A DNA stretch of 64,000 nt from a virus, in the IMG/VR virus record IMGVR_UViG_3300030107_004423, positions 1 to 64,000 of that record; one strand, 5' to 3'. This document shows, piece after piece, positions 1,579 to 64,000 of this stretch. Under the pieces are notes generated by a model. That model saw only the letters and a program-made list of their open reading frames with translations, had not been told where the DNA came from and did not search any database. Made by a program: the position numbers and the translations under genes. Positions within the stretch are counted from its first letter, which is position 1; the number at the start of each line of letters is the position of its first letter.

Positions 1579-1590
1579 ATTGGTACCAAA

Positions 1591-1658: not shown

Positions 1659-1672
1659 TATAACTTTCACAC

Positions 1673-1739: not shown

Positions 1740-1758
1740 AAATTTTAAAGGAGAATAA

Positions 1759-2212: not shown

Positions 2213-2564
2213 AATAGCAATAATGAAGAAGAAAAGAAACACAGACGTGGAAGAAGAATATCCAAGAATGTGTGACTCATTTGAATCTATAACCGATGAA
2301 ATGTTTGAGCTGTTTAAGAAGAAACAATCAGACTATGGACCTACCAATATAGGTATGGGTAGTCGTACTATAGAAACAGATGGAGATGTAGAGAGATCAA
2401 TGATAGGATTAACAGTTAGAATGAATGATAAAGTTCAAAGACTAATGAATCTTATTCTTGATAATAAAGACCCTCAAAATGAATCTATAGAAGATACATT
2501 AATAGATATAGCTAATTATGCTGTAATGGCAAAACTAGTTATAAATAAGGAATGGGGAAAATGA
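2193..2564 (+). CDS. DUF1599 / MazG-like protein
   Basis: A 123-residue protein matching the DUF1599 pattern (also called nucleotide modification associated domain 1): MFELFKKKQSDYGPTNIG, then IGL.VRMNDKVQRLMNL, then ESIEDTLIDIANYAVMAKLV. These helices with acidic residues resemble the all-alpha NTP pyrophosphatase (MazG) superfamily, so a role in nucleotide pools or modified bases is possible but not shown. The start at 2193 is chosen because the homologue at 56710 begins MEIIGD; an in-frame ATG six bases upstream also exists. Confidence 0.75.
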   Translation: MEIIGDRIAIMKKKRNTDVEEEYPRMCDSFESITDEMFELFKKKQSDYGPTNIGMGSRTIETDGDVERSMIGLTVRMNDKVQRLMNLILDNKDPQNESIEDTLIDIANYAVMAKLVINKEWGK

Positions 2565-2785
2565 AGATAGTAGCAAAACTATCTAAAGAGTATTATAATT
2601 GCTACATGTGTTCTTTTTCAGGTTTTGCAGATAGATATATTGTAGTCCCACATATAGTAGATACGGATAAAGAGTATACAATATGTACTTCATGCGCTAA
2701 AAGAGAACATGGTAGTAAAAATAAAGTTAAACTAATAGATGTCATAGAAGAAAGGACTAAAATATGGCTACAAAAGAAGCAATAA
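2561..2785 (+). CDS. Small zinc-ribbon-like protein
   Basis: 74 residues containing two CxxC pairs (CYMC near the N-terminus, CTSC about 30 residues later), a typical zinc-ribbon spacing. The start ATG overlaps the previous stop as ATGA, and GGGGA lies just upstream; an ATG at 2552 is an alternative. The second copy (57069-57293) keeps all four cysteines, supporting metal binding. Nucleic-acid binding is the usual role of such folds, but no specific function can be assigned. Confidence 0.75.
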   Translation: MKIVAKLSKEYYNCYMCSFSGFADRYIVVPHIVDTDKEYTICTSCAKREHGSKNKVKLIDVIEERTKIWLQKKQ

Positions 2786-3042
2786 AAAAGATACAAGATA
2801 AAGCTACAGAAGATTACAAAGGTAGAACTGAAGATCTTTACAATAAGAGTGCAATGCTAGAAGAAAAGATTATCAATGTAACAATATCATTAGATGCTGT
2901 TTCAAATAAAGTTAATAATCTAGATATTGATGGACTTAACAAATCTATTGAAGAGGTTAAATCTAGGATAGATGAAGTAGAAAAAATATTACGTGAACAT
3001 AGTCCATTAATTACTCAATTAAGAGGAAGGATTGGAATATGA
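2764..3042 (+). CDS. Coiled-coil early protein, 92 aa
   Basis: The start lies inside the zinc-ribbon gene. Residues about 25-80 show continuous heptads (LEEKIINVTISLDAVSNKV and following), predicting a long coiled coil, and the end LITQLRGRIGI matches the second copy's LITTMRGRMGV. The homologue (57272-57493) is 19 residues shorter in the coil, so length there is tolerated. Function unknown. Confidence 0.7.
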   Translation: MATKEAIKKIQDKATEDYKGRTEDLYNKSAMLEEKIINVTISLDAVSNKVNNLDIDGLNKSIEEVKSRIDEVEKILREHSPLITQLRGRIGI

Positions 3043-3254
3043 AGCAAAAGAAACCTACTAACAATGAGATAAAAACTGTTATTAGTAATATATTAATAGA
3101 ATTATCTCAAATGTCTGAATTTCTAAAAGGTTTAGATACATCATTTGCAGCTTATTTAGAGATGAAAGGTGATGCAGATAAATTAAATATATTCATCAAA
3201 GATAAAATAAAGGAGGCTAAAGATGCCCAGCAAAAGCAAAGCGAAGGGAAATAG
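3039..3254 (+). CDS. Small helical early protein, 71 aa
   Basis: The start overlaps the previous stop (ATGA). It is a highly helical protein with a strongly conserved centre (ELSQMSEFLKGLDTSFAAYL) shared with 57490-57708. Its last codons contain the AAAGGAGG ribosome binding site of the nuclease gene, whose start lies inside it, so the two are co-translated. No family recognised. Confidence 0.75.
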   Translation: MKQKKPTNNEIKTVISNILIELSQMSEFLKGLDTSFAAYLEMKGDADKLNIFIKDKIKEAKDAQQKQSEGK

Positions 3255-3549
3255 ATTCGAAAGAGAAATAGTTAAGATAGCTAAAGACAGAGGATTTGAA
3301 TCTCAAAGAGCGTGGGGATCTAATGGTCAAGCGTTAGGAATGCATGAAGAAGTAGATTTGACTTTAGGCGTAAATCCTAAAATGAAAATACAAGCTAAAT
3401 GCAGAAAGAGTATAGCTTCTTATCTTATACCTACAGAGCATGTAGATGCCGTAGTATGTAAAGAAGATAGAGGAGAGCCTTTAATAATAATGAGATTTTC
3501 CGATTGGCTTGATATGCATTGGGGAAATTGTATGGTGGAGGATAGATGA
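3223..3549 (+). CDS. PD-(D/E)XK nuclease, Holliday-junction-resolvase-like
   Basis: A 108-residue protein with the compact archaeal-Hjc/RecB-like nuclease layout: N-terminal basic KGNRFEREIV (Glu13), then EVDL (Asp45), then QAKCRK (Lys59), giving an E...D...QxK active-site set. The family cuts branched DNA, so it may resolve replication intermediates or trim DNA before packaging. Strong AAAGGAGG ribosome binding site. The homologue at 57677-58003 is about 85 percent identical and keeps all motif residues. Confidence 0.75.
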   Translation: MPSKSKAKGNRFEREIVKIAKDRGFESQRAWGSNGQALGMHEEVDLTLGVNPKMKIQAKCRKSIASYLIPTEHVDAVVCKEDRGEPLIIMRFSDWLDMHWGNCMVEDR

Positions 3550-3674
3550 ATAAAGTACAGCTCTATAGTATAAAGAAAAAACGACACGACAATAACAATA
3601 CTAACAGATTGGATTGGAAGATTGATAAGCTTCTAATTGCAGTCGATAAACTCCTAAGAAGACTAGGTGGTTAG
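3546..3674 (+). CDS. Small basic protein, 42 aa, end of early operon
   Basis: The ATG overlaps the nuclease stop. It begins MNKVQLYSIKKKR and ends DKLLRRLGG: a basic N-terminus and an amphipathic helix. It is the last gene before the convergent terminator. The second genome has an unrelated 69-residue membrane protein in this exact slot (58000-58209), so this is where the two early modules stop matching. Function unknown. Confidence 0.5.
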   Translation: MNKVQLYSIKKKRHDNNNTNRLDWKIDKLLIAVDKLLRRLGG

Positions 3675-3688
3675 TTAATTAAAGTGAA

Positions 3689-3715
3689 ATAGGGGGGAGC
3701 ATTGCTTCCCTCTAT
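3689..3715. terminator. Bidirectional terminator between converging operons
   Basis: A 12-bp stem (3689-3700 with 3704-3715, two G-U pairs) with a 3-nt loop lies between the converging early and late operons. The stop codon of the 1,034-aa late gene lies inside the right arm. T-runs are weak on both sides. The second genome has a different 9-bp hairpin in the same position. Confidence 0.7.
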
Positions 3716-6700
3716 GTTATTAAACTAGACATTGCTTCCATAGCTGCTTGTCTTTCAAATTCATCAAGTCCTTTGAATTTATCTCTTTTCTTTCTTTTCT
3801 TATCCTTAACACCAAAGAATTTTTTAATAGGCTTTGGAATCTTACCTCTTGCAATTTTACTCATATTTCTTTGATCTTTATCTGGAAATAATCCTAATTC
3901 TAAGAATGCTAAATCGGTAAAGCTACTGCCTTGTAAGAATGAAGGAATTGTATATGCAACAGTCCTGGCTAATTGAGCATTTATTATATTTAATTTAGAA
4001 TAAAGCTCCTCTCTTCTGTCTCCAGTCATATGTTTAAATGCAGTGTCAAAAGCTTCTTCTGTTCTAGGATCTACATTGCCATCTAAATTTGCTTTTGCAA
4101 CAAGTTCATATGCACTCATAATCATTGGAGCATTAGGACCAAGAAAATATTTACCTTTCTGTCCAAATGTTTGTCTTACATATTTCTTTATTATATCACC
4201 ATGTTCCATCTTTAAATGAGCTTTTCTACTCTTGTCATCAATTATAGTCTGTATTTGCTCTTCAGTTATTTTGCCTGAATGTAACATAGCTTGTATTTCA
4301 GCATGTAATAATAATGTCTCTCCTGTTTCTAAAACATCATTAGGCATTAATTTGGGAAGATTAACTTTACCAGCTATAGTAGCACCCCATATAAGGGCTT
4401 GTAACATACCAAATCTCATAGGCCTCATAAATTCTTCACTAGTAAAATCACCAGCTCTAGCAGAAAGTCCAGCTTCTTTTCCCCATTTATACATTAGATC
4501 TGTCATACTAAATCTATAATGAGCAAATTGACCTAATCCCATTTTAGCCATCATTGTGGCTTTACTTTCTTTTCCAGTAACACGTATAGCTTTAGCCTTA
4601 TTCCATTTAGCATATTCAAAATGCAAATCTAACACTCCAGAATAAGCTAATTCGCCAGCTTTATTTTCTATCCAATTAGACATTACTTTATCTGCATCTT
4701 TTCCATATCTTTCAACTAAATCTTTTTCAGTTATTATATAGTCATCACCTTTTTTACTTTTAATATCTGATTCATATCTTTTTAAGATTTGTTGCGCTCT
4801 CCAAGTAGAGCTAGTCTGTTCTAAATTACCATGAGCTAAGGCAAAACCCACATCAAATGTTCTTCCTCTATTCCAATCCTCAACCACTCTATGCATTCCA
4901 CCTGCAGATTTAGCTATATTACTAGAAACTCTAGCAGTAAATGCAGGATAACTATCTCCATGCTTAACTTGTAAATTTCCTTTTTCATCTACGAACATTT
5001 CATTATTATTCATATATGAATCTTCTAAAGCTCCCCTACTAGCTTCACTTATCTTTACATTCTCACCTTTTAAAGAATCAAAAGCGTTTGATGTCATATT
5101 TTTTCCATTAAACCATTGCAACCCATATTTAACTTTCTGTCTATTTACTTTAACTTGATTGCTTTCTGCTCCACCTACATTTTTATAAAATCTAGCAGAA
5201 TCACCAACAAAAGGAGCAGCAGCTTTAAATCCAAAATGAACCCACTCATATGCTCTTTGAGTACCATTTCTAGCGGCAGATCTTATATTTCCTCCCATTA
5301 ATCTAAAATATGTAACAGCTTGCATTGTTCTCATTATATTTTCTACTGTACTATCCCTTCTAGGATCTATTGTATACACATCATTATAAACATCTTCCAT
5401 TAATTGCAACATATCCATAGATGCTTCTTCCAGATCTTTTCTCCCAGCCTCTCTTGCAGGATTTAAATGCTCGTCTATAATTTTATTAGCAGCATTATTA
5501 AAATTGTCTTTAACATGTAATCTATAATTAAATATACCTACATCGCTTGCATATTTTTTAAGAAAGAAGTAAGGATCGTTATTGTATATATTATTCATTA
5601 AAGCAGTTCTAGGCTTTGCTACATTAACTATTCCATCCCAACTATCTAATTCATTTTTAATCTTAACATCTAAAGACATATCACCTCTATCTATAGAAGT
5701 TTCAATTTTTTGCAATGTTTTTATCATTCCAAGAGTATAATGAGACATATAATGAGGAGAGAAAGCTACTTTTTTATTAGTAGATATATCTTTAACATCA
5801 AATCCCATTCCTATAAAGTCTCTATTGCTTTGCATATCCTTATAGTCTATAGTTCTATTATTCTCATCTATATTCTTTTGAAATTCTATAGATTTTATCA
5901 AAGCAGATACCTTATCTATAGTACCATCAACCCATTTTAAATTTTCTTTATCTTTGGCCATTGATTTGATTTTTTGCAATCCCCTTACAAGACTAACAGA
6001 TGTAGATTTTCTTATCTGAATATAATTAGATTTCATTTTTTCTAAAGCTATTCTTTGTTTTGGCTTTAAATTGGGTATTGTAGCAATATCAGCGCCTTGT
6101 AATACATCATTCATTAACTCAAAAGCTTTACCTGATCCATCTTTATAAAATTTTTGAATCTCTAATTGATTCGCTCTTAATTTTGCTGCTACAGATGTTT
6201 TAGTTTTAAGATTCTCAGTGCTTAACCATTGATCGGATAAAGCATCGTATTCTTTTTGAAGTCTTGCTAATTTTTTTTGACCTCCAGATTTAAAAGATTT
6301 GCCTATTAAAGACTCTTCTCCTAAAGAAAGAGACAATACTTTCATATTTTGAAGAAATTCATTGATATTTTTATTAGCATTTGTACTAAAATCTCTATAA
6401 AATGAAGTTTCATCTACTAACCTTTTTTCAAATTTAGCTAATTCTGGGATATTTCTCATAGTTGCTCTAGGTAAATGAAATTTAGATGCAAAAATACCTT
6501 TTGGCTTTGATACTAATGAATCATAATATTTCAATCCTAATTCAAATTTTCTTATATGTCTATAATTTATAGGAAATTCAGATGGATCTAATGCTGGTAA
6601 ATGGGTGTATTTTTTCCAAAGCCATTCAAATGTTTCAAAATTATTCCAATTAGCATCTTTAACATTCTTATATTTACCTTTATCCCAATCGTAAGATATT

Positions 6701-6816
6701 TTATCAAGTCTATTGGCTATTATATCTTTGTCTTTTTGCTTTAATTTACTAAACCACTGATCATCACCCTCTAGTTTTTTAGCAAATGCATTTAATCCAC
6801 ATAAAAAAGCACTCAT
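3712..6816 (-). CDS. Large virion-associated protein next to the polymerase, 1034 aa
   Basis: Last gene of the late operon; its ATG is directly adjacent to the stop of the 2,980-aa gene. It is mostly helical, lysine-rich, with coiled-coil stretches around residues 180-330 and a very basic C-terminus (KDKKRKKRDKF). It is a distant homologue of the 905-aa protein at 58242-60959: shared spaced blocks include NN.....P.F.L..Y..DV..FN, then RNG...AY, then FEYA...KA.AI and Q..HY..S. Both sit directly after a giant polymerase-like gene, so it is probably a co-packaged or co-ejected partner. No enzymatic motif recognised. Confidence 0.65.
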   Translation of the reverse strand: MSAFLCGLNAFAKKLEGDDQWFSKLKQKDKDIIANRLDKISYDWDKGKYKNVKDANWNNFETFEWLWKKYTHLPALDPSEFPINYRHIRKFELGLKYYDSLVSKPKGIFASKFHLPRATMRNIPELAKFEKRLVDETSFYRDFSTNANKNINEFLQNMKVLSLSLGEESLIGKSFKSGGQKKLARLQKEYDALSDQWLSTENLKTKTSVAAKLRANQLEIQKFYKDGSGKAFELMNDVLQGADIATIPNLKPKQRIALEKMKSNYIQIRKSTSVSLVRGLQKIKSMAKDKENLKWVDGTIDKVSALIKSIEFQKNIDENNRTIDYKDMQSNRDFIGMGFDVKDISTNKKVAFSPHYMSHYTLGMIKTLQKIETSIDRGDMSLDVKIKNELDSWDGIVNVAKPRTALMNNIYNNDPYFFLKKYASDVGIFNYRLHVKDNFNNAANKIIDEHLNPAREAGRKDLEEASMDMLQLMEDVYNDVYTIDPRRDSTVENIMRTMQAVTYFRLMGGNIRSAARNGTQRAYEWVHFGFKAAAPFVGDSARFYKNVGGAESNQVKVNRQKVKYGLQWFNGKNMTSNAFDSLKGENVKISEASRGALEDSYMNNNEMFVDEKGNLQVKHGDSYPAFTARVSSNIAKSAGGMHRVVEDWNRGRTFDVGFALAHGNLEQTSSTWRAQQILKRYESDIKSKKGDDYIITEKDLVERYGKDADKVMSNWIENKAGELAYSGVLDLHFEYAKWNKAKAIRVTGKESKATMMAKMGLGQFAHYRFSMTDLMYKWGKEAGLSARAGDFTSEEFMRPMRFGMLQALIWGATIAGKVNLPKLMPNDVLETGETLLLHAEIQAMLHSGKITEEQIQTIIDDKSRKAHLKMEHGDIIKKYVRQTFGQKGKYFLGPNAPMIMSAYELVAKANLDGNVDPRTEEAFDTAFKHMTGDRREELYSKLNIINAQLARTVAYTIPSFLQGSSFTDLAFLELGLFPDKDQRNMSKIARGKIPKPIKKFFGVKDKKRKKRDKFKGLDEFERQAAMEAMSSLIT

Positions 6817-9800
6817 TTATTTGCTCCTATAACAATCTATTAAATTTCTTACTCTTTGTTGAGTATTTTCTTGTACTCCGCCACGATCACCTAAGTCTTG
6901 TCGTCTTAAAGCGTCTCGCTCACTAACAAACAACTTCTTCACTCCATATTGCCTTACATTTCCATCTTCAGTAGTAGCATATTCAGCTGTACCCCACTGT
7001 CTGTCTACAGGCAGTACAGGTTCTAATGCTTTTTGAGCTTTATATAATATAACAGGATCTATAAGTTTATCAGTAGTTGCATATTCTATCATAACTCTAG
7101 CTGCATTTTTTTGCATATCATTTCCAGCTTCTCTTATATCAAATACATCTTGAGTTAAATATGTTTCTTTTGTCATATGCCCATCTATACTAGCAGGCTC
7201 TGTATACATTCTAGATGTAAGTATTTGAGCATCTATATTTGGATTTTGAACCTTAGTATAATGAGCTGTTTTTAAATAGTTTATATCATCTAAAACATCT
7301 TTTGCATAATCATTATATCCACCATCAGGCCTATATTCACCTGTAGACAAGCTAGAAAGCAATCCAAGTACAGGTTCACTTAATCCATTTTCATAAAATA
7401 CATAGTCATATACAGCTTTCTTTTGATTTCCATCATTAACGCTTCTCATTGATACAATTTTATTAGATATATTAGGTATTAACATCCTCATTATCAAAGC
7501 TTTTCTTTTTATATCTGTCATCTCAGGATCATTAAATAGTCTATCATACAACAAAGCTCTTCTTTGTATCACAAAATCTTCTATTCCATACCTACCAACT
7601 TCTTTTGCATTACCTAATTCTATAAGCTCTTTTTGAATACTTTTATATTCACCTTTTATTCCATTATTAAGTTCATAGGAAGAAAGTGTTTTTATCATAG
7701 CTTCATCACCTGTTCCTTCTCTTATAGTAGGTAATCCAGCAAAAGCTTCAAATAAAGTTCTTAATCCTTTTTGTTCTTCACCATTAGTAGCTTCAAATCT
7801 TCTACCATTTTGTATTACTTTATCTTTAAATGATATATTTTGAATATTATATTTTCCTGGCCTTATAACTTCTTTTATCTTGCCATCAGCGCCTATAACT
7901 ACAAAAGGTTTTTTACTGTTATTCTTAAATGCTCCTGATTTTTCTGCTCTTTTTTGTAAAATAGGAATATTAGGCTTAATTGGATCTTCCCCCATCATAT
8001 ATGAAATAGATTCTTCCATCCCTATTCTTAACTCTTCTATATTAGATAGCCTTGCCCTCATACTTTTTAAATTTTCAGACTCTTCAACACTTTTTTCAAA
8101 TTTCTTAGACTTATCTATCTCAAATTTCAAATCTCTTTCTTGCTTTTTAAGCTCTAAAACTTTTAAAAATCTTGCCTCATCTCCAACATATTCTCTTAAA
8201 GCAGCATTAAATAATCTATTGTGTTTTTCAGCATCAGTTTTTCCTTGAACAGCAGCATATCCATTATCTATAAAATCAATTATTTGGTCTTGAATAGAGA
8301 ACCCTTTTCCATAAGCTCCTTGCCCTTTTAAAGTATTTAAATCTTCATAAGTTCTATGAAGTTCTTGCATAGCAATGTCATATGAATTTTTAGAATTATT
8401 AAAATAATTTCTAGCAGCTATTAAACTAGGCTCCATATTAATAGAAGGAGGTATTCCCCAATTCTTACTAGGATCTAATGTCATTCTATATAAATTAACA
8501 AAAGCATTATTATAACTTGATAATTTTGCAGATCTATCAACACCAGTAGCATCTGTCTCTACTCCTTGATTGTATTTTAAATATTTATTTAGAGGATCTA
8601 TTATCCTTGCTCTTATAGCATTTATAGCTGGTTGAAATCTAGAATCCATCATATCGACTTTATCTAAAAGCGTGAACATTCCAGGAGTATCTTCGTATCC
8701 AACTTGGAATAAACCATCCTTACCAAACCATACTTGATTTTGAATCTCTCTTATTTGCTTAACATTAGCTTTGGATGGAAGTCTTTTGTAAACATCTATA
8801 AACATTTTTGCAAGATTAGATATATTATCAACAGTAGCTACATAGTTATACTTAGAATTAAATCTTATTTGTATATTTGTCTTTGCCGCTTTGAACATTT
8901 TAGTTTCTTGAGTCAATATTACTGGATTTTCTCTAAACATATTTGCTAAATAAGTAGCTGTTTGATGCATTTTTATAAATTGACCCCTAGCCATATTAAC
9001 TTCATTCAATATCATATCATTTGTATATTCACCTTCAAATAGATTAGGCAATGTTTTTGCAAATTCACCTATTCCTACATTAGGATCAAATATTTTATTT
9101 AGAACACTAGAAGGATTTGTTTGTGATCCTGTAATATGTCCAGACAATTTATTTGCTTCTCTCCAAAATTTACCAGGAGCTGCAACATAATTAAATGATT
9201 TATCAAAATCAAAATCTGCGTCTTGTGGAGTTATAGCATCTGAATGATTCATTCTACTAACATTTCCAGCTTCTCTATCAACATATGATCTCATGTCATT
9301 GCCTTCTCCAGTGACTGCCATCTTGCTTATAACTATATCACCCATCATATTTCTAGGCTGTCTACTATTTAACATTCCTATTGCCATATCTTTATCATAA
9401 TTTTTTATAACTAGATTAGCATCATTTATTGTTGTATGGTTATCTATCAAATAATCATCGCCTGTTTTTAAGTTGTATACAGCATCTTCCTTAGAAACAG
9501 CTTTATTATATGTATTTTTAAGTGATTCTGATTTAGCTAAAATTCTACCATCATCAATGTCTATGTATTCACCCTTACTATTAATATATCTTCCTTCTAC
9601 TTGTAAAAATCTTTCTCCTTTTATATTTACAAGAAATCCATCTGCTACTCTTTTACCTACTATAAATTCACTAGCAGGTTCATATTCAACTCTTTGTATT
9701 ATAACATTATGAACTCCATTTAATTCAGGCTTAGTGCTATGAATAAATTTCTTCTGAGAGGCATAATAAGAAGGTAAAAATTCACCAAAAAACTGAACTA

Positions 9801-12800
9801 CAGGCCTATCATTTAGATCAGATCTAACTGTAATATCTAAATCTCCCATATCAGCAGTCATAACATCTAAAGAACCATCCTTAACTATACCACCAGCTAT
9901 AGAGCCATTATTTAGGTAGTATCCGATAAGATTATCTTCTAGCCTCCTTTGAGCCCAAGGTTCAATAACAAGGCCACCTCTAGTCAATATAGAGCTTATA
10001 GCGCTATTAACAACGGAAGGATCTCCTGTTTCTGCCTTAGCTCCTAATACTTTTTGAGCTAAACCAGTTCTATAATATGCATTGCTATACATATGAGATA
10101 CGCCTTGTCTATAATTTGCAAGTTTCTTTTCCACACCTATCCATTCAGATACTCCAGAATCATTAGACATATGCACTGCTGCATTTGCTCCAACCAAAGG
10201 ATCTTTTTGCTTAGATATAGTTCTTAAACTCATAGCATCAAGGGGAATTTCTGTTATTCTATTTGCATTTGTAATTCTACCAGCTTGACTTATATATTCA
10301 TGCCAAGGCTTATTAACATCAGTAGTGCCAGCAACTCCTGCATACCTATCTTCATATTGATCATTTTTACTACCTTTATAAGCATTTATTTTATTAGCAG
10401 ATTTAAATGTAAGAGCATCTATTCCTAAATCTGAAAGTATATCATCTAGTAATGGATTATATTTAAAGGCTGTTTTTGCAAACCATTCTTCAACCTTTCC
10501 ATAATCACTACTATTTGCATCTTCATAGGATACCTTAGAATGTGTTATTGTAGGCTTTATTGCTCCTGATTTAAAGCCTGTAACCTTTCCATTCATATCT
10601 GTCATAACCATATCAGGATGTAGACCTATCATAGCCATAGATGCTAAATAGAAATCTTTAGATACATACATTTCTCCATCTACTATTGATTTTGTAGTCT
10701 GCTCTATTCGTTCTATTTCTTTATCTCTATGAGTATCATCTATTAAGCCATCATTAAATTTCTTTTCTAATTGAGCTCTAGATCTATCTAATGAACTAAA
10801 TATATTTCCTATTATATTATCATTATTGTCTCTTAATACAGCCTCGTCATCTATAGAAAGAACTTTTAATTTTTTAAATTCTCCATTAGCTTGAGGCTCT
10901 AACCAATCTTTAACATCTTCATATACATTTTTAAATAAATCTGATTGAGATGTTCTATACATCATAGCTGTTTTTTCTCTATTGCTATCAGTTGGAACAT
11001 AACCATTTTTGGTTTCATTTAGCTTGTCTCTTTTAAATCTATCTTTAATATAGTCATGATCTAAATCTATAGCACCTTTGCCTACTACACGCTCTATAGC
11101 AGAAGGCATATTTAATATCATTCTTGCAAGCTTTATACCTTCTACTAAAGCATTGTCTCCAGAAACATCTCTTATTTGAGAAAGCTTATCATTTATAGCT
11201 CTATATTTATCTTGTGTAATATCTCCATCTAATATAGCTTCTAGAATTTTAAATAATCTACCATCAGCACTAAATTGAGCTTTAATATTTTCATGTAATG
11301 ATCCTGGATATTTATCTGTTCTAACTATTATAGATGTAGATTCATTCATAGGTATAGCTGTATATGTTTCATGCTGAGAAGGGGGATCATAATTTGTATC
11401 GTGTATTTTTGTATTATCTTGATATTTATACCAATCAGCTTTTCCTTGAGGATTAACAATTCTCATATTACCACTATCTAACGATGCATTAATATCATTT
11501 AATCCAAATCCGTTTATATTTCTTATAACATTTCCATCAGAATTTATAGCACTAGTTTCAGCTAAATAAATAAAGCTTTGATTAGGATCTAATGCTTTTA
11601 TAAGCCCTGTAAATCCTCTATTGTCAGTTTCTCCAACTACTTTATATCCTTGTATTAATCTAGGTCTCCCCTTAGTCAAATCTATTTTAAGAGTTTTTAT
11701 TGGCATCTTAGAAAAATAATTAGATGTTATGGCATAAACATCGCTATCTATCATATCTAAGCCAGGTTTATTTTCTGGTTTCAAATCATCTATAGCTATT
11801 TGCATTCTAAACTTCAAAGGATCAACTACAAATTTTTCAAAGTTTTTAACATCTAAAACAACTTCTCCTTGTTGATTTTCCAATGTTCTTATCATTTTTA
11901 ATACATTGGCTTTCAATCCAGGATTTTTAATATTATCAGGAGTAATTGCATATTCTCCTAATATTTCATTGACCAATGCTTTTAAGTCTTTAGCTTCTTT
12001 TTTGCCCATTCTATCTATAGCAAAAATTTCATCTAAACTCTTTGTTGGTATTTTATATTTAGATGCAAATTGAGCTGTAGTTATTTTCATTATTTTATCA
12101 TTTACATCTTTTTCGTGTATTTTATCAGCATACTTTGCTAATTCTTCTTTAACGAAGTCTTGAATATTGGATTCGTTTATAACTATTTTTTGTGCTTCAG
12201 ATTTTATATCTTCATTAACCCTAATAAGTTCTTCCATATAAGACATTCTATCTGAATTTCTAGGATTATAAGCTACTCTATTAAATATATCATTTATATC
12301 GCCATCTTTTCTGCTAATAGCTCTTAATAGATATGGATCATTCTGATCTAGAGCACTTTTAATAGTTTGCTTTAAATTTATAGTAACTTTTCGATCATCT
12401 AATAATTGCTGCAATTCTTTTTCGTATTTAGTTCTAGCTTTATCTGATATATTATCAACACCAAGTTCTATATTCTTAATTATGCCTATTTTTTGATCCA
12501 TATTAGATAGATATCCATCTAAATTCATAATCATAGATTTAGCTCTTGGTTGAGCCCAATCAGTCATAGCTACCTCTCCTGCAGCTAATGATTTTTGCAA
12601 AGAAGTTATCCAATCATCTGTAGTTGTTTCTACTAAATTATCCTTAAATTCTACTGGATGTTTTGATTTAGATATATTATCTACTAATTGCTTGTAGTGT
12701 TTATCTAAAGCATTGTACATAGATTCACTTATTTTATTACCTTTATATGCAGAAAGTAATTTCCTAGAAACACTGCCATAGTTAGGCATTACAGGCTTCA

Positions 12801-15759
12801 ACCCATCTTCTTGATAATTAAAGGTTATATCTTGCATTAATGTGACTAAGCTAGCCTTGGTATCTACCCCACCTGCTAAATCATCCATTCCAAGCCTTCT
12901 TAATGACTTTTGAATTATATAATTATTAAATTCATCATGCATCTTCTTATCTGAAAATAAATCACCTGTAACTGATTTTACTTTCTCCACCAATGCTTGA
13001 GCTTTATCCATCTGAATAACTCTAGGATTTTTTGTATTCAAGTCAGGATATAAAGATTTCATTGAAGAGTTTAATCTTTTAATAAATAAAGCTATCTCTC
13101 CATAATTTTCAGCATCTCCTTCAGGTTTTAATACTTGTACTTCACCTTTAGTTAATATATTTGCATTTATAGCATTTAAAATATCTCTTGCATCGTTTTG
13201 AGGAGCTCCATGTTCTTTTCCACCAGTTAATAATTCATATGCATTTCTTCTTTGTTTATGCCTTAATACTCTATTATATGGTATAGCCCATGAATCACTT
13301 ACAAGTATAAATGGATCAAGCTCTTGATTTTTTTGCCAATTCTCTCCCCAACTATGACTCATCAATCTTTCTGACGCACCTTTCCATGAATCGTGAGCAA
13401 TAGCTATATTTTCTTGAGATAACATAGCTTTATCTACAGATATAGGATCTCCTGGTTGAATCCAATTATTTTTAAGTCCTTGTCCATATATAACTGATAT
13501 AGCTTCATCTACAACTCTATCTCCAAAATCAACAGAAGACAAATCAGGCATTCTTATTACGCCATTTTCATCGTTATAAGCTATGTCTAGCTTTTCCATT
13601 ACATCTATTAAAAAATCTCTTTGTATTTGTTGAGGAATGTTTATAGCTTGAGATAATCTTTTATCCATCCATTCTTCTAATTGATATGATAAATTGTTAG
13701 CTGTTAACTTAGTCCCATCAAACTTTATAGAAGATATTTTAGTTACTACTTCCATAGCTTGGTCAGGAGTTAAATTATTTATATTTATTCCTTCAGCACC
13801 ATTAGCATCATATTCTTTTAATATTTTCTCTGCAATTAGTAATTTCTCATAAAATGGTAAAGTTTCATCATAGCTTAATTTGCCATCCTTCACCAAGTCA
13901 GCCATTGCTTTATTGAACGATGTATTTAAATCAGCCCCTGCTACACCACCATCATCTGGGAATTTAGACATAATTTCTTTTATTTCTGAAAACTCTTTAC
14001 TGCCATCTAAGGTTGTTTTTATTACATTTTTACCTTCAGCATAATTATCTAGCTTAGAATTTCCATAAGCATTTACTATTTCATTCAAACCAATAGGATC
14101 ATCTATTCCAAATGTCTTAAGACTTCCTACTATTTCTTTTAATTGTTGAGATTTAAATTTACTATATCTTTCTATATTACCTGTTTCAAATAATTTGTTA
14201 AAGTATTTCCCATCCATTTTAGCATGAAAACTATGAGGCTTTCTGGTAAAGAACATTGCTGTCCATATATTGGCTACTTGTTCTTCCCTTGTAGCTCCTA
14301 ATGCTTCTGAGGCATTGTCCATAGACCATCCTTTTTGATTAAAAGACATGGCCATTCTAGGAGCATTCATAGCTACTACACCAGCAGACATTCTAGGTAA
14401 AGATGCAATCATATCAGTAGTAAATTCTCTAGCCCAATATGCAGGAGCTTTTAATACAAATTCTGATCTAGCAGCACTTAACATTTCTCTCATTGCTTTT
14501 GTGCTTTCTTCATCAGTCGCATCTACCCACCATTGTTTACCACCTCCTCCAGCAGCATTCTTTGTAAATTTCTTACCCAAATTAGTACTTAGATATTTTC
14601 CTGATATTTCATCCATAGCAGTTAATTGATATCTTAATTCTTTATTTGTGTAATCCTTTATAGGCTTCCAATATGATTTGAATGAATTTCTAACCAAGCT
14701 GCCAAGCCTACCTAAATGACTAGCTTGAGTACCACCTTTTAAGAATGATATAGGACCCATTGCAGAGTAATACATACTTTCTGTTATAGCTTCATTATAC
14801 CATGCATTAAAAGATTTTCCTGCATCTATATCGTAATCACCAGTATAATAAGGTTGCTGATTTTCATTAAAATCTACTCCAAACATTTTAGTTTGAGCCA
14901 TTTTAGATGCAGCTCTAACTGAAGCCATTCCAAATCCAATAGCCGCATCATATGCCGCTGCTCCTAATATAGCACCTGTTTTAGGTCCTGCTCCTGGGAT
15001 TTTCCTTCCAAGCATCTGTAATATAGCAAATGCATCATCAGGATTATTCTTCATTACTATATCTACAGTCTCTTTAGCAATACCCTCTACTAATTCTTCA
15101 TCTCCAAGTTTTAATATATCTGTTATATTTTCTTTTATACCCTCTTTAAATACATCTTTATATACTTCTCTAGAAACATTACCTTCTATAGCATTTATTA
15201 CATTAGAATCAGATTGAACATCATAAGCATCATCTATTATTTTTCTAGTTTTATTCTTTGTAAGGGTTTCGGTTAAATTTATACCTTTCTTTGAAGGCAT
15301 TTTAGATGCAATACCTATTAAATCTTCAACAGAAGTTGCCTTTGCTAGCCCAGGAACATTCATAAGTAATTTACTTCCACCTCTTATTCCTGCACTAACT
15401 GTTTTAGCAGCTAATGTTAATGGACTTAACATACCTGCAACTTGACCTACGGTTGCACCAGCTCTAGCGGCTCCTGTCATTTCTTCGTATTCAACTCCAG
15501 GAGATAATCCTAAAGAAAACATATCCTCCATAGTTGTTACATCTTCACCTTTATATATTTCTTCTTTTGCAACGTCAGATGCTCCAGGTATACCAAGTAA
15601 AGCTTCATCAGCAGCCTTCCAAAGCGCTTGTCCTAAGAAGTCATATACTGCACTGCCTGTAGTAGTTCTTTTTATTTCAGGAGCAATCTCTTCTCTATTT
15701 AATCTTTCTTGTATTACTTCCCAAGTTATATCATCTCTACTTTTATCTTGACTGCTCAT
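6817..15759 (-). CDS. Giant virion protein, candidate two-barrel RNA polymerase, 2980 aa
   Basis: Residues 2133-2186 hold an RQP block followed 49 residues later by ADFDFDK (Asp2182, 2184, 2186). This copies the R-x-P ... NADFDGDQM layout of the catalytic double-psi barrel of cellular RNA polymerase beta-prime, where three Asp residues bind the catalytic Mg. crAss-like phages carry such polymerases as very long virion proteins with DxDxD variants. The counterpart at 60959-64000 has DWDGDH in the same place with about the same distance to the C-terminus (798 versus 792 residues). N-terminal Gly/Ala-rich hydrophobic stretches (about 97-127 and 255-285) could help membrane passage during ejection. 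Position among late internal-protein genes fits packaging. The start overlaps the previous stop. Polymerase activity is inference; the size, late location and motif are what is seen. Confidence 0.7.
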   Translation of the reverse strand: MSSQDKSRDDITWEVIQERLNREEIAPEIKRTTTGSAVYDFLGQALWKAADEALLGIPGASDVAKEEIYKGEDVTTMEDMFSLGLSPGVEYEEMTGAARAGATVGQVAGMLSPLTLAAKTVSAGIRGGSKLLMNVPGLAKATSVEDLIGIASKMPSKKGINLTETLTKNKTRKIIDDAYDVQSDSNVINAIEGNVSREVYKDVFKEGIKENITDILKLGDEELVEGIAKETVDIVMKNNPDDAFAILQMLGRKIPGAGPKTGAILGAAAYDAAIGFGMASVRAASKMAQTKMFGVDFNENQQPYYTGDYDIDAGKSFNAWYNEAITESMYYSAMGPISFLKGGTQASHLGRLGSLVRNSFKSYWKPIKDYTNKELRYQLTAMDEISGKYLSTNLGKKFTKNAAGGGGKQWWVDATDEESTKAMREMLSAARSEFVLKAPAYWAREFTTDMIASLPRMSAGVVAMNAPRMAMSFNQKGWSMDNASEALGATREEQVANIWTAMFFTRKPHSFHAKMDGKYFNKLFETGNIERYSKFKSQQLKEIVGSLKTFGIDDPIGLNEIVNAYGNSKLDNYAEGKNVIKTTLDGSKEFSEIKEIMSKFPDDGGVAGADLNTSFNKAMADLVKDGKLSYDETLPFYEKLLIAEKILKEYDANGAEGININNLTPDQAMEVVTKISSIKFDGTKLTANNLSYQLEEWMDKRLSQAINIPQQIQRDFLIDVMEKLDIAYNDENGVIRMPDLSSVDFGDRVVDEAISVIYGQGLKNNWIQPGDPISVDKAMLSQENIAIAHDSWKGASERLMSHSWGENWQKNQELDPFILVSDSWAIPYNRVLRHKQRRNAYELLTGGKEHGAPQNDARDILNAINANILTKGEVQVLKPEGDAENYGEIALFIKRLNSSMKSLYPDLNTKNPRVIQMDKAQALVEKVKSVTGDLFSDKKMHDEFNNYIIQKSLRRLGMDDLAGGVDTKASLVTLMQDITFNYQEDGLKPVMPNYGSVSRKLLSAYKGNKISESMYNALDKHYKQLVDNISKSKHPVEFKDNLVETTTDDWITSLQKSLAAGEVAMTDWAQPRAKSMIMNLDGYLSNMDQKIGIIKNIELGVDNISDKARTKYEKELQQLLDDRKVTINLKQTIKSALDQNDPYLLRAISRKDGDINDIFNRVAYNPRNSDRMSYMEELIRVNEDIKSEAQKIVINESNIQDFVKEELAKYADKIHEKDVNDKIMKITTAQFASKYKIPTKSLDEIFAIDRMGKKEAKDLKALVNEILGEYAITPDNIKNPGLKANVLKMIRTLENQQGEVVLDVKNFEKFVVDPLKFRMQIAIDDLKPENKPGLDMIDSDVYAITSNYFSKMPIKTLKIDLTKGRPRLIQGYKVVGETDNRGFTGLIKALDPNQSFIYLAETSAINSDGNVIRNINGFGLNDINASLDSGNMRIVNPQGKADWYKYQDNTKIHDTNYDPPSQHETYTAIPMNESTSIIVRTDKYPGSLHENIKAQFSADGRLFKILEAILDGDITQDKYRAINDKLSQIRDVSGDNALVEGIKLARMILNMPSAIERVVGKGAIDLDHDYIKDRFKRDKLNETKNGYVPTDSNREKTAMMYRTSQSDLFKNVYEDVKDWLEPQANGEFKKLKVLSIDDEAVLRDNNDNIIGNIFSSLDRSRAQLEKKFNDGLIDDTHRDKEIERIEQTTKSIVDGEMYVSKDFYLASMAMIGLHPDMVMTDMNGKVTGFKSGAIKPTITHSKVSYEDANSSDYGKVEEWFAKTAFKYNPLLDDILSDLGIDALTFKSANKINAYKGSKNDQYEDRYAGVAGTTDVNKPWHEYISQAGRITNANRITEIPLDAMSLRTISKQKDPLVGANAAVHMSNDSGVSEWIGVEKKLANYRQGVSHMYSNAYYRTGLAQKVLGAKAETGDPSVVNSAISSILTRGGLVIEPWAQRRLEDNLIGYYLNNGSIAGGIVKDGSLDVMTADMGDLDITVRSDLNDRPVVQFFGEFLPSYYASQKKFIHSTKPELNGVHNVIIQRVEYEPASEFIVGKRVADGFLVNIKGERFLQVEGRYINSKGEYIDIDDGRILAKSESLKNTYNKAVSKEDAVYNLKTGDDYLIDNHTTINDANLVIKNYDKDMAIGMLNSRQPRNMMGDIVISKMAVTGEGNDMRSYVDREAGNVSRMNHSDAITPQDADFDFDKSFNYVAAPGKFWREANKLSGHITGSQTNPSSVLNKIFDPNVGIGEFAKTLPNLFEGEYTNDMILNEVNMARGQFIKMHQTATYLANMFRENPVILTQETKMFKAAKTNIQIRFNSKYNYVATVDNISNLAKMFIDVYKRLPSKANVKQIREIQNQVWFGKDGLFQVGYEDTPGMFTLLDKVDMMDSRFQPAINAIRARIIDPLNKYLKYNQGVETDATGVDRSAKLSSYNNAFVNLYRMTLDPSKNWGIPPSINMEPSLIAARNYFNNSKNSYDIAMQELHRTYEDLNTLKGQGAYGKGFSIQDQIIDFIDNGYAAVQGKTDAEKHNRLFNAALREYVGDEARFLKVLELKKQERDLKFEIDKSKKFEKSVEESENLKSMRARLSNIEELRIGMEESISYMMGEDPIKPNIPILQKRAEKSGAFKNNSKKPFVVIGADGKIKEVIRPGKYNIQNISFKDKVIQNGRRFEATNGEEQKGLRTLFEAFAGLPTIREGTGDEAMIKTLSSYELNNGIKGEYKSIQKELIELGNAKEVGRYGIEDFVIQRRALLYDRLFNDPEMTDIKRKALIMRMLIPNISNKIVSMRSVNDGNQKKAVYDYVFYENGLSEPVLGLLSSLSTGEYRPDGGYNDYAKDVLDDINYLKTAHYTKVQNPNIDAQILTSRMYTEPASIDGHMTKETYLTQDVFDIREAGNDMQKNAARVMIEYATTDKLIDPVILYKAQKALEPVLPVDRQWGTAEYATTEDGNVRQYGVKKLFVSERDALRRQDLGDRGGVQENTQQRVRNLIDCYRSK

Positions 15760-56174: not shown

Positions 56175-56184
56175 ACTTTCACAC

Positions 56185-56250: not shown

Positions 56251-56269
56251 AACAATTTAAAGGAGAACA

Positions 56270-58219: not shown

Positions 58220-58247
58220 AAGTAGGGATAGTTATCTGTCCCTACTT
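58220..58247. terminator. Bidirectional terminator between converging operons (genome 2)
   Basis: A perfect 9-bp stem AAGTAGGGA (58220-58228) with TCCCTACTT (58239-58247) and a 10-nt loop. The late gene's stop codon lies in the right arm, as at 3689-3715. Confidence 0.75.
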
Positions 58248-60959
58248 TCCTCTTAATTCTTCAGATAAAGCTATTAACTTTAAACTACCACTTTGATTTT
58301 TCTTTTTATTAAGCTTAAAAGGTTTAAATCCTAAGTACTCTTTAGATGCTTTATTTATAGCCTTTCTATTATCTTTTATCCAAGAACGTGGATATAAGCC
58401 TAATTCATGCCTAACTATATCCATACCTCTTCCATCACGTATAGCAGGCCCAGTTTTTGTCATCCACCTTGCAAACTCAGTATTTAATTTATTCCACATA
58501 TTTCTTTTTTCTACAGTATCTATTCTTTTCTTTGGGCCAACCCAATCAGGAACATCACCTTCTCCATAATAATCTATATAACCTGTAAGCATTCTTTGCC
58601 AATTTTCATCTGGCATTTTATATAGTTGAAGTGCATTTAACCCATATAATATATCGCCTACTAAAGGCCCTGTATAATCATTTATTAACCCTCTTTTTCC
58701 TTCTAGTTCTTTAGGGGGTTTTTTAGATTTTAACGTCTTTCTACCTTGAACATTTGCTTTAAATTCTTCTACTGGAAGAGTTAGATAATCTTTCATATCT
58801 CTAATTCTTCTTACAGTATCATTCTCTAATAAATTATTAAAATCTAAGTTAAATCCTACAGATAAAGCTTGTACAGCTGTATATATTCCTGCAAATCTTA
58901 AAGCTTGTCTTAATTCAGGAGCATCCCATTGAGCTGATAAGGCAGCATCTTTAGCTCCATGCAATATTTTAGATTGAAGATTTAAAAATGACATAGGATA
59001 ATGTAAAAATTGGAACACCATCTCACCAGTAGCAGTAGCATAATCTCTACCTTTCATTTTAGGAAGTCCATCAGGACCAATTTCACCTGCAGGAGCAGTA
59101 CCACCTATAGCTCTTGCTTTAGCATGTGATGCATATTCAAAAGCAAAAGCATTAACAGATTTTAATGCAAATCTAGTGGCCATTTGCTGTATTTTACGGT
59201 TATTAGCTGAATCTAATTTTTCTATAGCATTATAATCTGTAGGTTTTAATATATTATGATCTTTTAAAGATTCATAAGCTTGAACCCATGCAATTCTAAA
59301 CATCCATTTACGAGTAGCATTCTCAGTAAACCTATGGAATACCAAAGATTTACCTACTACATTATCTATCATAGGATCTAAAGTTTTTAAAACTCCTCTA
59401 TCTCTATATGTAACCTTATTTTTTACTGGATCAAATATAATATCACTTTGATTAACAGAAGAAGGTATTAATCCTTCAGCTACTAATTCTCTACCACCTT
59501 CTGCGAATTTAAATCCCTGCTCCGTTTCTATTTTAGTAAGCATAGATTCATAATGAGAATTATATTTTCCTATAGCAGCTGTAGCACTAGATATACCATT
59601 TTCTGCAAAGAAGTAGGCAGCACTAGCACCATTTCTTATAGCTCCTGTAACAGACAATCCCATAGATTTTAAAGTTTCAGCTGCCATTAAACCTCTAACC
59701 ATAGCATTTACATAATTAGGTCTTTCTAAGTTTCCTTTAGTAGCTACTTGAAAAGTATCCTCAAGATATCCTCTCATACTTCTTATAAATTCAGGATTAG
59801 TATCATCTTTTTGAAATTTTCTTATAGCTGGTAAATATTGTTCTTGTATAAAATTGATTTTATTAAAAGCTATTACATCTTTAGAGTAGTTAGTCAGTAT
59901 AAAGAATGGATTCTTACTCCATGAATTATTTAAAAGCTCGTTACGAGATTTAGCAGCATCTGGTATCATAGTTTCTATTTTATCAACCACAACTCCTAAA
60001 GCAGTGTCAGCCTCATTTCCTTTTTTTGCTTCTAATGCTTGCCTCATTTTATAATTAACCTCAACTATATTATCCATTATATAGTGAGGAAGATAACCAC
60101 CTTCTTTAATTCCCTTGCCTATCTTTTCTTTGGCTTGTCTGATTCTTTCTACATATTTTTGGCCTGTCTTAGGAAGTAACGGACTATCATAAACCATTTT
60201 AACTACATTTTCCATTCTATCTAATCCATTTATTAATACTTTTCCCATATTATCCAATAAAGATCTAGATTCTTTTACAGCTAAAATAACATTCCTATCA
60301 TATTTAGTGCCTCTTTGAGTATTTTTTAAGAAATTAGTATTATCCATCTCCATTAAAGATATATAATCATTAATTACTTCATCTCCATATTTAGTAAATA
60401 AATCGTTATATTCTTTTGTATATTCAGTGTTAACACCTTCATCACCTTCAACCATTATAAGTCTTTCCAGGTCAGCTAATCTTTTTTGGTATTTTTTTAC
60501 TTCTTTTTTAGATTTGCCTGTTTTTAATATTAAAGCATTTCTTATATGACTAGCTATAGATTTAGATGTTGTTAAATATTGATCTAAATTATTACGTTCA
60601 TAGTTAATAGCTTCATTTACTTTTTCATAAAATACTCTTGTTACTGGAGAATAGTTAGCTATAGCATCAGATACATAAAAATATCTTTTAAAAGTACCTA
60701 TTTTTCTATACTTGTAATTATATTCTATGTTATCTATTTCTTTTTTCATTCTATTTATCATACCTTCTGAGAAATTAAAATCACTGCTAAAAGGAATTTT
60801 AAATAAATGTTCAGATACATCATTTATATATAACTCAGCATTTCTATCATTAGGACTAGACCCACCTATTTTCCCAATACTTTTAGATAGCTTTTTGTTC
60901 CAATGACTAACGACATCTTCAAATCTTTTATTTGGTACACCGTAAAAACAATCTATCAT
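58242..60959 (-). CDS. Large virion-associated protein, 905 aa (genome 2)
   Basis: A distant homologue of the 1,034-aa protein at 3712-6816, shown by spaced blocks in the same order: PHYI, LLNNSWSKNPFFILTNYSKD, KSMGLSVTGAIRNGASAAYF, FEYASHAKARAI and FQFLHYPMSFL. It starts with MIDCFYGVPN, is helical and basic. Its start shares a base with the polymerase-like gene's stop. The pair is kept together in both genomes, so they probably act together in the virion. Confidence 0.65.
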   Translation of the reverse strand: MIDCFYGVPNKRFEDVVSHWNKKLSKSIGKIGGSSPNDRNAELYINDVSEHLFKIPFSSDFNFSEGMINRMKKEIDNIEYNYKYRKIGTFKRYFYVSDAIANYSPVTRVFYEKVNEAINYERNNLDQYLTTSKSIASHIRNALILKTGKSKKEVKKYQKRLADLERLIMVEGDEGVNTEYTKEYNDLFTKYGDEVINDYISLMEMDNTNFLKNTQRGTKYDRNVILAVKESRSLLDNMGKVLINGLDRMENVVKMVYDSPLLPKTGQKYVERIRQAKEKIGKGIKEGGYLPHYIMDNIVEVNYKMRQALEAKKGNEADTALGVVVDKIETMIPDAAKSRNELLNNSWSKNPFFILTNYSKDVIAFNKINFIQEQYLPAIRKFQKDDTNPEFIRSMRGYLEDTFQVATKGNLERPNYVNAMVRGLMAAETLKSMGLSVTGAIRNGASAAYFFAENGISSATAAIGKYNSHYESMLTKIETEQGFKFAEGGRELVAEGLIPSSVNQSDIIFDPVKNKVTYRDRGVLKTLDPMIDNVVGKSLVFHRFTENATRKWMFRIAWVQAYESLKDHNILKPTDYNAIEKLDSANNRKIQQMATRFALKSVNAFAFEYASHAKARAIGGTAPAGEIGPDGLPKMKGRDYATATGEMVFQFLHYPMSFLNLQSKILHGAKDAALSAQWDAPELRQALRFAGIYTAVQALSVGFNLDFNNLLENDTVRRIRDMKDYLTLPVEEFKANVQGRKTLKSKKPPKELEGKRGLINDYTGPLVGDILYGLNALQLYKMPDENWQRMLTGYIDYYGEGDVPDWVGPKKRIDTVEKRNMWNKLNTEFARWMTKTGPAIRDGRGMDIVRHELGLYPRSWIKDNRKAINKASKEYLGFKPFKLNKKKNQSGSLKLIALSEELRGK

Positions 60960-63900
60960 TATCTACATGATCTCCTTCTATCTATTTGGTTTTCTTTCCA
61001 ATTTCTAAACATATTTCTTACTCTTTTTTGATCTACTTGACCCTCAGGAACAACTGTAGTTCTAACTGTTTGCCCTACACCAGCTTTTATAAGAGAAGCT
61101 TCCATGTCAGGAGTGATTATACCTGATAATATGTCAACTAGTGGTTGATTAGCTCCTTCTGGTAAAGCATAGTCTTTTAAAAATAAGGAACTTTTATTTA
61201 ATTTCCTAGTAGTTTCATTGCTTCTTCCAGATATAAAATCTTTATGTTCATTATACTCAGATACTATCATAGTAGCTTCATCATGATGTCCATTTTTATG
61301 CAAGTAATTAAACACTTCTGTAAATATCTTTTTATTCATTCTTAATATAGGCATAGGAGTATCGCCTTCTGCATACTCTCTAGCTATAATATCAGGTCTT
61401 AAAAGCATTTTAGCTTTATAATATATTAAAGAACCACTTTCGCCTAATTCTTTTATTATATATTGAGGTCCTAATACTTGTCCATTTAAGTCTGTAATAT
61501 TATTCTTAAAAAACTTAGATAGCTCTAATTCTTTTCTCATATGATAATTATTAAATATATCTTCAGCTAAAGCTCCTGTTTGTCTATATTCTCTTAAAGC
61601 ATTTTTCCAACCATCCATAATAGTTTTTCTAGTTTGAGCTGCCACAGATTCATATTTTCCATAAGTAGCTCTATCTACAAAATTCATAGGTAGAGAATTA
61701 TATGTAAAGTTCCAAGCATAACCATCTAAAGCTGAATCTCTAGTAATTCTTGTTCCTACTATTGGTTGTTGTAATATTAAATGCTTTCCTCTTAAATTTT
61801 TAGATCTTTGACCAGGAGAAACTGTTTGTACAAATTGCAATGCATCAAAATTTGGAACTCCATCAGTATATAATTTCCCTACTACTTTATATATAACATG
61901 ATCTTTATTATAATCTTGGTTATAATATTTAGGAGTTCTTCCATCTTTATTAGGTTTGAAGTCTTTTATGTATTTTTTCTGATTATCTTTGATATTCTTT
62001 AATACTTCATTTCCTCTTAAAGTCTCTATAATAGTCTTTGCACTTGATATATTATTTAATAAATCTGTAGTATGTTCTATTATAGCTCTATTACCTGACT
62101 TCATTCCCATGTGATAATTTAACTTGTTATGTAGGAAATTTTCTTCACTTATTAATAGATCATGCACTAATGAAGCTTTTTCAGCATTTCTAGGTAAGTA
62201 TCCTATTTCATCCAATTTTAACAATGTTTCTCCATTTGCTATCATTTCTGAATCTGTAATGCCTAGTACTCTCATCATAGCTATGTCATTTAAAAGCTTG
62301 TCTGTACCTATTTTATAATTACTGATATTAGGATTATCCCAAGCATTGTCAATTTCAGTAGATTTAAACATTTGTTTTTTTACTATCTCATCCATAACAA
62401 CGCCTATGTTGTTTTTTCTTATAGCTTCTGTAATACTTTTAGCGCCAAATTTTATAACATTATTTCTTGGTCTTATTTTCCCTTGTAATGCTAATATCTT
62501 TAACTCATCTATATCTCTAGCTGTTACATCTGATTTTTTTCCAGTTTTAGGATCTGCCTCAACTGAAAAGAAAAGAGGTACTAATTCATTAAGTTTATTG
62601 TTAATGTCTACATCAGCTCTTTTATACTTTCTTACCAAATTAGTAAAAACAACTTGATTAGGATTGCTAAAGAATCTTCTCATATCAGAATATCTTTGTT
62701 GTATATCCCAAGAAGTAGCTTTCTTAGGTCCCATATCTCCATATATTTGATTAAATATGGCTGCAGGTTGCTTTAATATATTTATAACTTCATATACTAT
62801 ATCTCTATGAACGCTATTTTCTGGATGATTAAACATCTTTCCTGTTAGATCAGTTTCACCATCACCATATATCATATAGTCTAACCCTTTATCACCAGCT
62901 ATTTTGTCGCTTAGATTTGCTATAAAGTCAACTACACTCTGATTACCTTTTTCTAATCTGTTAAACATACCTTTGTTATTGACTAGAGTATTTACATCAT
63001 AATCAAAATTATCTTTCATTCTTTTTCCATCTATGGAGAAATCATTTAGATACATCCATTCTATAGCACTTTGCATTCCAATTACTTTTCCAACTTGCAT
63101 AGAATCAAAATGTATTTTTTGTTTTAATTCTGATATATCATTAGAGCTAACAGTTCCTGCAGGTAATAATCTACCATCATTATCTTTTCCTATTCCATAT
63201 ATATTTGCTTTTCTAGGTGTAGATTCTAATACAGGATATTCCTCTTGAAAACTTGCCATCTTAAAAGAATGCTTTAAAAATTCTTTAGTTTCTTTAGTAG
63301 AATAATCATGAGTATGTCTTACATGATCCCCATCCCAATCACCTTGAGCATTAGCTCTAGAGTCATATGAATTTAATTTAAATGCTGTACCTATTCCTGA
63401 GTCTTGCTTTCTAACTCTTACAGGCATAAAATCAGAAGGACCTTTTCTAGGACCTCTTTCAACATTTATAACCAATCCAAAGTTGTTATTTTTCAATCCT
63501 TTCCATCCTTGTGTATTCATGGATTTTTGTATAAATTTTTGAACTCCTGCAATAGAAGGAGCTCCTCCTTCTCCACCCATAACAGCATGTATTTTTTGAC
63601 GAGATTTATTTTTAAATATAGCATCTAAATACTCTACAAATTCAGCTACTTTTTTAGGTACCTTAATATTTTTATCAGCATCTATAGATACTCTATTTCC
63701 ATCTTTGTCTAATACATTAGTTCTATAGCCCGCATCTTGATATTCCATTAAAGGATTATATATATTTGTAAATTTGCCATTCTCGTAATTAAATGTATAA
63801 TCTATATCGTTATCTCTAAATACAAAAGAAAGCTCTTTCATGCTATGCACAGGCATAAAATCAGCGTCTGCACCCATAACAGCTTCACCTAACTGTATTC

Positions 63901-64000
63901 TAGCAGTACTTTTCACATCTCCCGCTTGATCATATATATCTAATCCTATAGGATTTTTAGAATTTAAATCAGGTATTATAAATGGATATGCAAATTTAGG
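60959..64000 (-). CDS. Giant virion protein, candidate two-barrel RNA polymerase (C-terminal part; genome 2)
   Basis: The frame is open to the right window edge; the GTG at 63916 is internal, because in-frame codons continue upstream without a stop. Motif block: ERGPRKGPSDFMPVRVRKQD, then 20 residues later NAQGDWDGDHVRH with Asp at 63340, 63334 and 63328. This is close to the NADFDGDQMAVH loop of RNA polymerase beta-prime. About 792 residues follow the motif, as in the 2,980-aa homologue (798). Outside the motif identity is low. The rest of the gene lies beyond the window. Confidence 0.7.
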   Translation of the reverse strand, partial: PKFAYPFIIPDLNSKNPIGLDIYDQAGDVKSTARIQLGEAVMGADADFMPVHSMKELSFVFRDNDIDYTFNYENGKFTNIYNPLMEYQDAGYRTNVLDKDGNRVSIDADKNIKVPKKVAEFVEYLDAIFKNKSRQKIHAVMGGEGGAPSIAGVQKFIQKSMNTQGWKGLKNNNFGLVINVERGPRKGPSDFMPVRVRKQDSGIGTAFKLNSYDSRANAQGDWDGDHVRHTHDYSTKETKEFLKHSFKMASFQEEYPVLESTPRKANIYGIGKDNDGRLLPAGTVSSNDISELKQKIHFDSMQVGKVIGMQSAIEWMYLNDFSIDGKRMKDNFDYDVNTLVNNKGMFNRLEKGNQSVVDFIANLSDKIAGDKGLDYMIYGDGETDLTGKMFNHPENSVHRDIVYEVINILKQPAAIFNQIYGDMGPKKATSWDIQQRYSDMRRFFSNPNQVVFTNLVRKYKRADVDINNKLNELVPLFFSVEADPKTGKKSDVTARDIDELKILALQGKIRPRNNVIKFGAKSITEAIRKNNIGVVMDEIVKKQMFKSTEIDNAWDNPNISNYKIGTDKLLNDIAMMRVLGITDSEMIANGETLLKLDEIGYLPRNAEKASLVHDLLISEENFLHNKLNYHMGMKSGNRAIIEHTTDLLNNISSAKTIIETLRGNEVLKNIKDNQKKYIKDFKPNKDGRTPKYYNQDYNKDHVIYKVVGKLYTDGVPNFDALQFVQTVSPGQRSKNLRGKHLILQQPIVGTRITRDSALDGYAWNFTYNSLPMNFVDRATYGKYESVAAQTRKTIMDGWKNALREYRQTGALAEDIFNNYHMRKELELSKFFKNNITDLNGQVLGPQYIIKELGESGSLIYYKAKMLLRPDIIAREYAEGDTPMPILRMNKKIFTEVFNYLHKNGHHDEATMIVSEYNEHKDFISGRSNETTRKLNKSSLFLKDYALPEGANQPLVDILSGIITPDMEASLIKAGVGQTVRTTVVPEGQVDQKRVRNMFRNWKENQIDRRRSCR

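Follow-up and report, generated by a model that had tools for sequence, protein, structure and literature searches.

A giant late phage protein of the crAss gp66 kind is predicted to be a single-chain two-barrel RNA polymerase

The 64,000-nucleotide stretch of viral DNA analysed here (the window; positions 1 to 64,000 of IMG/VR record IMGVR_UViG_3300030107_004423) encodes a 2,980-residue protein whose family probably belongs to an already known kind of enzyme, the single-chain two-barrel RNA polymerases of phages, with gp66 of the crAss-like phages as its nearest member. Conservation, the fold match and an independent profile match to both motif blocks together lead to this assignment. Homology, fold and conserved residues are thus supported, and the polymerase reading of an earlier note on this DNA held up: gp66 is the first-ranked fold match, both barrels are matched by profile in the same order, and the invariant lysines, the R-x-P and the DxDxD are all in place. 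Activity, packaging, injection and use of early promoters we infer by analogy with gp66, and the complete proposal, a DNA-dependent gp66-like polymerase that would be packaged, injected and put to early transcription, is in our judgement probable. The gene, its downstream neighbour and two N-terminal features are as follows.

6817..15759, minus strand: giant ORF of 2,980 aa; single-chain two-barrel RNA polymerase by prediction, extended N-terminally by ~1,500 residues (ORF call, AlphaFold2, Foldseek)
15385..15441, minus strand: Gly/Ala-rich hydrophobic stretch, residues 107-125 (hydropathy 1.27)
14917..14973, minus strand: Gly/Ala-rich hydrophobic stretch, residues 263-281 (hydropathy 1.45)
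3712..6816, minus strand: partner ORF (1,034 aa), with a homologue immediately 3' of the giant in 12/12 relatives

The giant ORF begins with ATG, shares 4 bases with the ORF upstream of it, abuts the downstream ORF and is located at the end of a long minus-strand late operon. It is the longest ORF in the window. Its description as lying among internal virion proteins gained no support from the upstream neighbours, which gave no informative matches, although the terminase, portal and capsid genes are found farther up the same strand. The Gly/Ala-rich hydrophobic stretches reported near the N-terminus are present, but their mean hydropathy is only 1.27 and 1.45. The partner ORF had no match in Pfam, and its product is the strongest candidate for packaging together with the giant. 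Its homologues (L096-L104) are conserved, measure ~1,000 aa and are always encoded directly 3' of the giant.

Relatives of the giant were sought in IMG/VR. Searching for the bare protein with short patterns missed the family, and a degenerate DNA pattern for DADFDFDK recovered it, in 12 contigs that each carry a giant ORF and share the context RQPRN..D.VI...GN...N..DA....DADFDFDK; the complete giant ORFs of the relatives are about 2,965-3,121 aa long. Further relatives were obtained with the pattern PQDADFD, which leaves the fourth position free, and fall into two groups, RQPRN...DFD[F/M/L]DKSF and LR[T/Q/V]P...DFDLDKS. A two-motif scan put the number of IMG/VR contigs encoding the core at 43 or more. 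Three members lack DADFD (L115 has DADYDFD, L116 and L123 have DSDFDMD) and were therefore recovered through the second motif. One scan of the GTDB species genomes yielded no relative of the giant, and hence no host from that source.

The fold of the C-proximal part was predicted with AlphaFold2 and the family alignment. Residues 1466-2650 gave a pLDDT of 80.6 and a pTM of 0.74, and residues 1680-2350 a pLDDT of 78.5 and a pTM of 0.77; in both models the catalytic DxDxD loop is of low confidence locally (block pLDDT 54-58). When the 1680-2350 model was compared with the PDB using Foldseek, the first-ranked match was 6VR4, gp66 of phage phi14:2 (probability 0.99, E 0.010, TM 0.32), with RDR2 second (0.90) and largest-subunit chains of RNA polymerase I after it. 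For the longer model the first place went to maize RDR2 (0.85), ahead of RNA polymerase I and II chains, so that two-barrel polymerases head both lists. The significant matches of the longer model in BFVD were unnamed viral proteins and then crAss-like proteins. RDR2 and QDE-1 are cellular, RNA-templated polymerases of eukaryotic RNA interference with a DxDGD motif, and the resemblance of RDR2 to the giant is one of fold, with no match at the sequence level. Each single fold or profile score for the giant is modest. The core and its motifs map as follows.

8710..10722, minus strand: catalytic core, residues 1680-2350 (AlphaFold2 model; top PDB match 6VR4, phi14:2 gp66)
10453..10683, minus strand: motifs of the beta-like (lysine) barrel, VDGEMYVS 1693-1700, GFKSGAIKP 1728-1736 and KTAFKYNP 1762-1769 (conservation; hhalign to gp66)
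10384..10410, minus strand: TFKSANKIN 1784-1792, counterpart of the gp66-family F-S-A-x-K-V-G (K1790 in 28/28)
9349..9366, minus strand: SRQPRN 2132-2137, containing the R-x-P of the beta'-like barrel (33/33 members have R2133 and P2135)
9196..9228, minus strand: PQDADFDFDKS 2178-2188, predicted metal-binding DxDxD (conservation)

We then compared profiles directly, using for gp66 an alignment of 12 sequences (phi14:2 gp66 and 11 homologues). With hhalign the family block VDGE.Y(V/L)S...IKP...KTA...P...VDAITFKSANKIN was placed on gp66 tDAQ.yit...K...K.A...P...IDMVTFESAVKVG, with a score of 51.5 and a probability of 33% (P 0.0012 for the full length and 4.5e-4 for the core), whereas the highest control scores were 19.6 (12 column shuffles) and 19.4 (reversed profile). 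A second alignment falls on the DxDxD loop, colinear with gp66. The N-terminal 1,500 residues of the family gave no match to gp66 in hhalign, and YonO gave no signal against the family by the same method, neither profile similarity nor its DNDGD motif being found. When the family profile was run against PDB sequences with hmmsearch, the sole matches were Wza polysaccharide exporters (E 0.007), recognised through 'QDADFDLDK', which we judged to be a chance mimic. Wza chains in the PDB (26gs, 9xgv and 9r60) carry 'KDVIKQQDADFDLDKMVNV', a near-copy of the catalytic loop that could mislead motif searches.

The likeness to gp66 extends to gene position. Both proteins are encoded by late structural genes at the end of a late operon with another large gene after them, and in both the lysine-barrel block precedes the DxDxD. 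The two differ in size (2,180 aa for gp66 and about 3,000 aa for the giant, whose long N-terminal part is the one lacking a gp66 profile match), in genome length (~100 kb for the gp66 phages and ~55 kb for those of the giant) and in the neighbouring gene, since profile comparison did not match the partner ORF at 3712-6816 to the crAss gene next to gp66. gp66 is a virion enzyme that is translocated into the host and transcribes the early genes (PMC7886860), and the phi14:2 record, where it is tagged gp077, lists it as a virion protein according to mass spectrometry. Because its core is related to this packaged polymerase, the giant probably starts phage transcription on infection; that it is injected and transcribes early genes is plausible, given the gp66 analogy and the position of the gene. 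On this view the structural operon would yield the protein late in infection, the particle would take it up together with the partner protein or next to it, and it would enter the host along with the DNA, to transcribe early genes at a stage when host RNA polymerase is not yet required. Packaging and delivery would most likely be the task of the ~1,500-residue N-terminal part with its Gly/Ala-rich hydrophobic stretches. The catalytic core would comprise residues about 1680-2350, with an N-proximal barrel supplying the invariant lysines K1735, K1762 and perhaps K1790. A second barrel would contribute both the R-x-P (2133-2135) and the loop DFDFD (2182-2186), in which two catalytic magnesium ions would be bound by the three aspartates. 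In the early region, sigma-70-like sites occur at chance level (79 against 70.6 +/- 8.7), and a search for repeats there found nothing clear.

A two-barrel polymerase might also be made during infection for middle or late genes and never be injected, like P23-45 gp64 or YonO, and P23-45 does have two two-barrel RNAPs, one a virion enzyme and the other not (PMC10770324). We regard this as unlikely for the giant, whose gene closes the structural operon, beside giant neighbours and far from the early genes, whose closest fold is that of a virion enzyme, and whose ~3,000 residues and hydrophobic N-terminal stretches contrast with the 839 residues of YonO.

Residues R2133, P2135, D2182, D2184, D2186, K2187 and S2188 are invariant in 33/33 aligned members, and the upstream lysines are invariant wherever the sequences cover them (K1735 in 26/26, K1762 in 28/28 and K1790 in 28/28). 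For most members the three aspartates were part of the search pattern, and the R-x-P and the lysines lie outside it. The form DxD[F/L/M]D is kept in 43/43 homologous contigs, and in 33/33 aligned members the fourth residue is F, L or M, followed by K. The earlier note had remarked that this motif lacks the usual Gly. That is correct with respect to cellular RNA polymerases and YonO (DNDGD), but not with respect to the closest relative, gp66, whose motif GSDFDIDK (DFDID, residues 1361-1365, where the giant has DFDFD) likewise has a hydrophobic fourth residue followed by K, nor to its crAss homologues, which have DFDVD, DLDVD or DYDID. The missing Gly is thus a trait common to the branch and no aberration. 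The same residue, together with the N-terminal half of the giant, which is likewise conserved among relatives, could be taken to indicate a catalytically dead or repurposed two-barrel protein with an internal structural or ejection role. We give this reading little credence, because the three aspartates, the R-x-P and the lysines are invariant down to members only 17% identical to the window protein, the lowest identity observed, and because a hydrophobic residue is common to gp66-type enzymes.

The RQP at residues 2133-2135 (9355-9363) and the aspartates D2182, D2184 and D2186 (codons 9202-9216) are located where the earlier note had placed them. By itself, without the relatives, this motif is weak evidence: DxDxD occurs 4 times in the giant against 1.46 expected by chance (7.9% Asp), and 4.9% of shuffled giant sequences contain an RxP followed by DxDxD at 35-60 residues. 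With the relatives added, it lies far beyond chance. The whole protein had no match in Pfam, PHROGs or PDB sequences (phmmer), nor in INPHARED (tblastn against 50,697 phage records), and as far as these libraries show, the literature being that of open-access papers, the giants are a real but uncatalogued family. That the motif is coincidental in a large ejection protein without a polymerase fold, as its near-chance frequency and the absence of Pfam, PHROG or PDB sequence matches might suggest, is very improbable and already largely refuted by the hhalign controls and Foldseek, with conservation, the fold match and the two colinear profile matches all speaking for the gp66-like polymerase.

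The phage itself encodes a terminase (phrog_38), a P22-like portal and an SU10-like capsid protein. The terminase is nearest to those of Alicyclobacillus, Vibrio ICP2 and Roseobacter phages (~25%) and the portal to that of VvAW1, which places the phage at a distance from all isolates and outside Crassvirales. The window also encodes, at 37106-42574, a tail-spike-like protein of 1,822 aa, in which NVAIGY-type repeats are numerous and which has PHROG matches to tail spike and virion structural proteins.

The full record measures 82,923 bases and is composite. Bases 1-3550, which hold early genes, are repeated at about 54,595-58,004 with 82-85% nucleotide identity, and the late genes past 58,242 (record 58242-82923; L003, L004) repeat the first late module in order, some stretches being ~88% identical and others highly divergent. 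These repeats indicate a unit of ~54.6 kb, after which there follows either another, related phage or an arrangement in tandem. The relative G005 (52.6 kb) has a single giant, and it appears to be circularly permuted, since both ends of its record fall within the partner gene. The second module contributes two further features to the window.

60959..64000, minus strand: 3' part of a second giant ORF (P0002; 2,830 aa as a whole, continuing to record position 69451), with DWDGD at 63326-63340 (residues 2038-2042)
58242..60959, minus strand: partner-ORF homologue (905 aa) downstream of the second giant (E 1e-17)

The second giant matches the family in its N-terminal third (hhalign E 1e-18, 18% identity) and is very divergent in the core; its lysine-barrel motif is similar by eye, and the second alignment is weak and unsupported (P 0.059). 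It probably comes from a second related phage, and this composite record is no basis for claiming that one genome carries two polymerases.

Several other phage polymerases invite comparison with the giant. YonO of Bacillus phage SPbeta is likewise a single-chain two-barrel phage RNAP. The virion RNA polymerase of phage N4 is also giant (~3,500 aa) and injected, but it is T7-like, whereas the predicted fold of the window giant is two-barrel. In Thermus phage P23-45, gp96 is a tail-tape-fused vRNAP, that is, a two-barrel RNAP inside a giant structural protein (PMC10770324); its description sets it apart from the giant, the RNAP being N-terminal with DFDGD in gp96 and C-proximal with DFD[F/L/M]D in the giant. 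Another giant phage ORF (2,855 aa), at 1098-9665 on the minus strand of L092 and also in L082, carries HRQPIAKVTG...LDGDWDGDHG, i.e. RxP and DxDGD. It has no significant profile match to the family of the window giant and, judged from these motifs, is possibly a further uncatalogued two-barrel RNA polymerase.

The family extends the crAss-type single-chain two-barrel polymerases to phages outside Crassvirales, in a protein of ~3,000 residues that Pfam, PHROGs, PDB sequences and INPHARED do not recognise. Its 43 relatives form a set in which to study the tolerance of a catalytic loop for different residues (F, L, M, I, V or G) at a single position. The two joined phages share 82-85% identity in matched early DNA against ~18% aligned identity in the N-terminal third of their giants, and have DFDFD and DWDGD, respectively. 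We tentatively raise the possibility that ~55-kb phages outside Crassvirales carry an exchangeable polymerase cassette made of the giant and its partner. If so, the virion polymerase would be replaceable while the early genes stay, and promoter recognition by injected two-barrel polymerases would become directly testable. In all, the finding suggests that early transcription by an injected RNA polymerase of the cellular type is commoner among phages with short genomes than is known.
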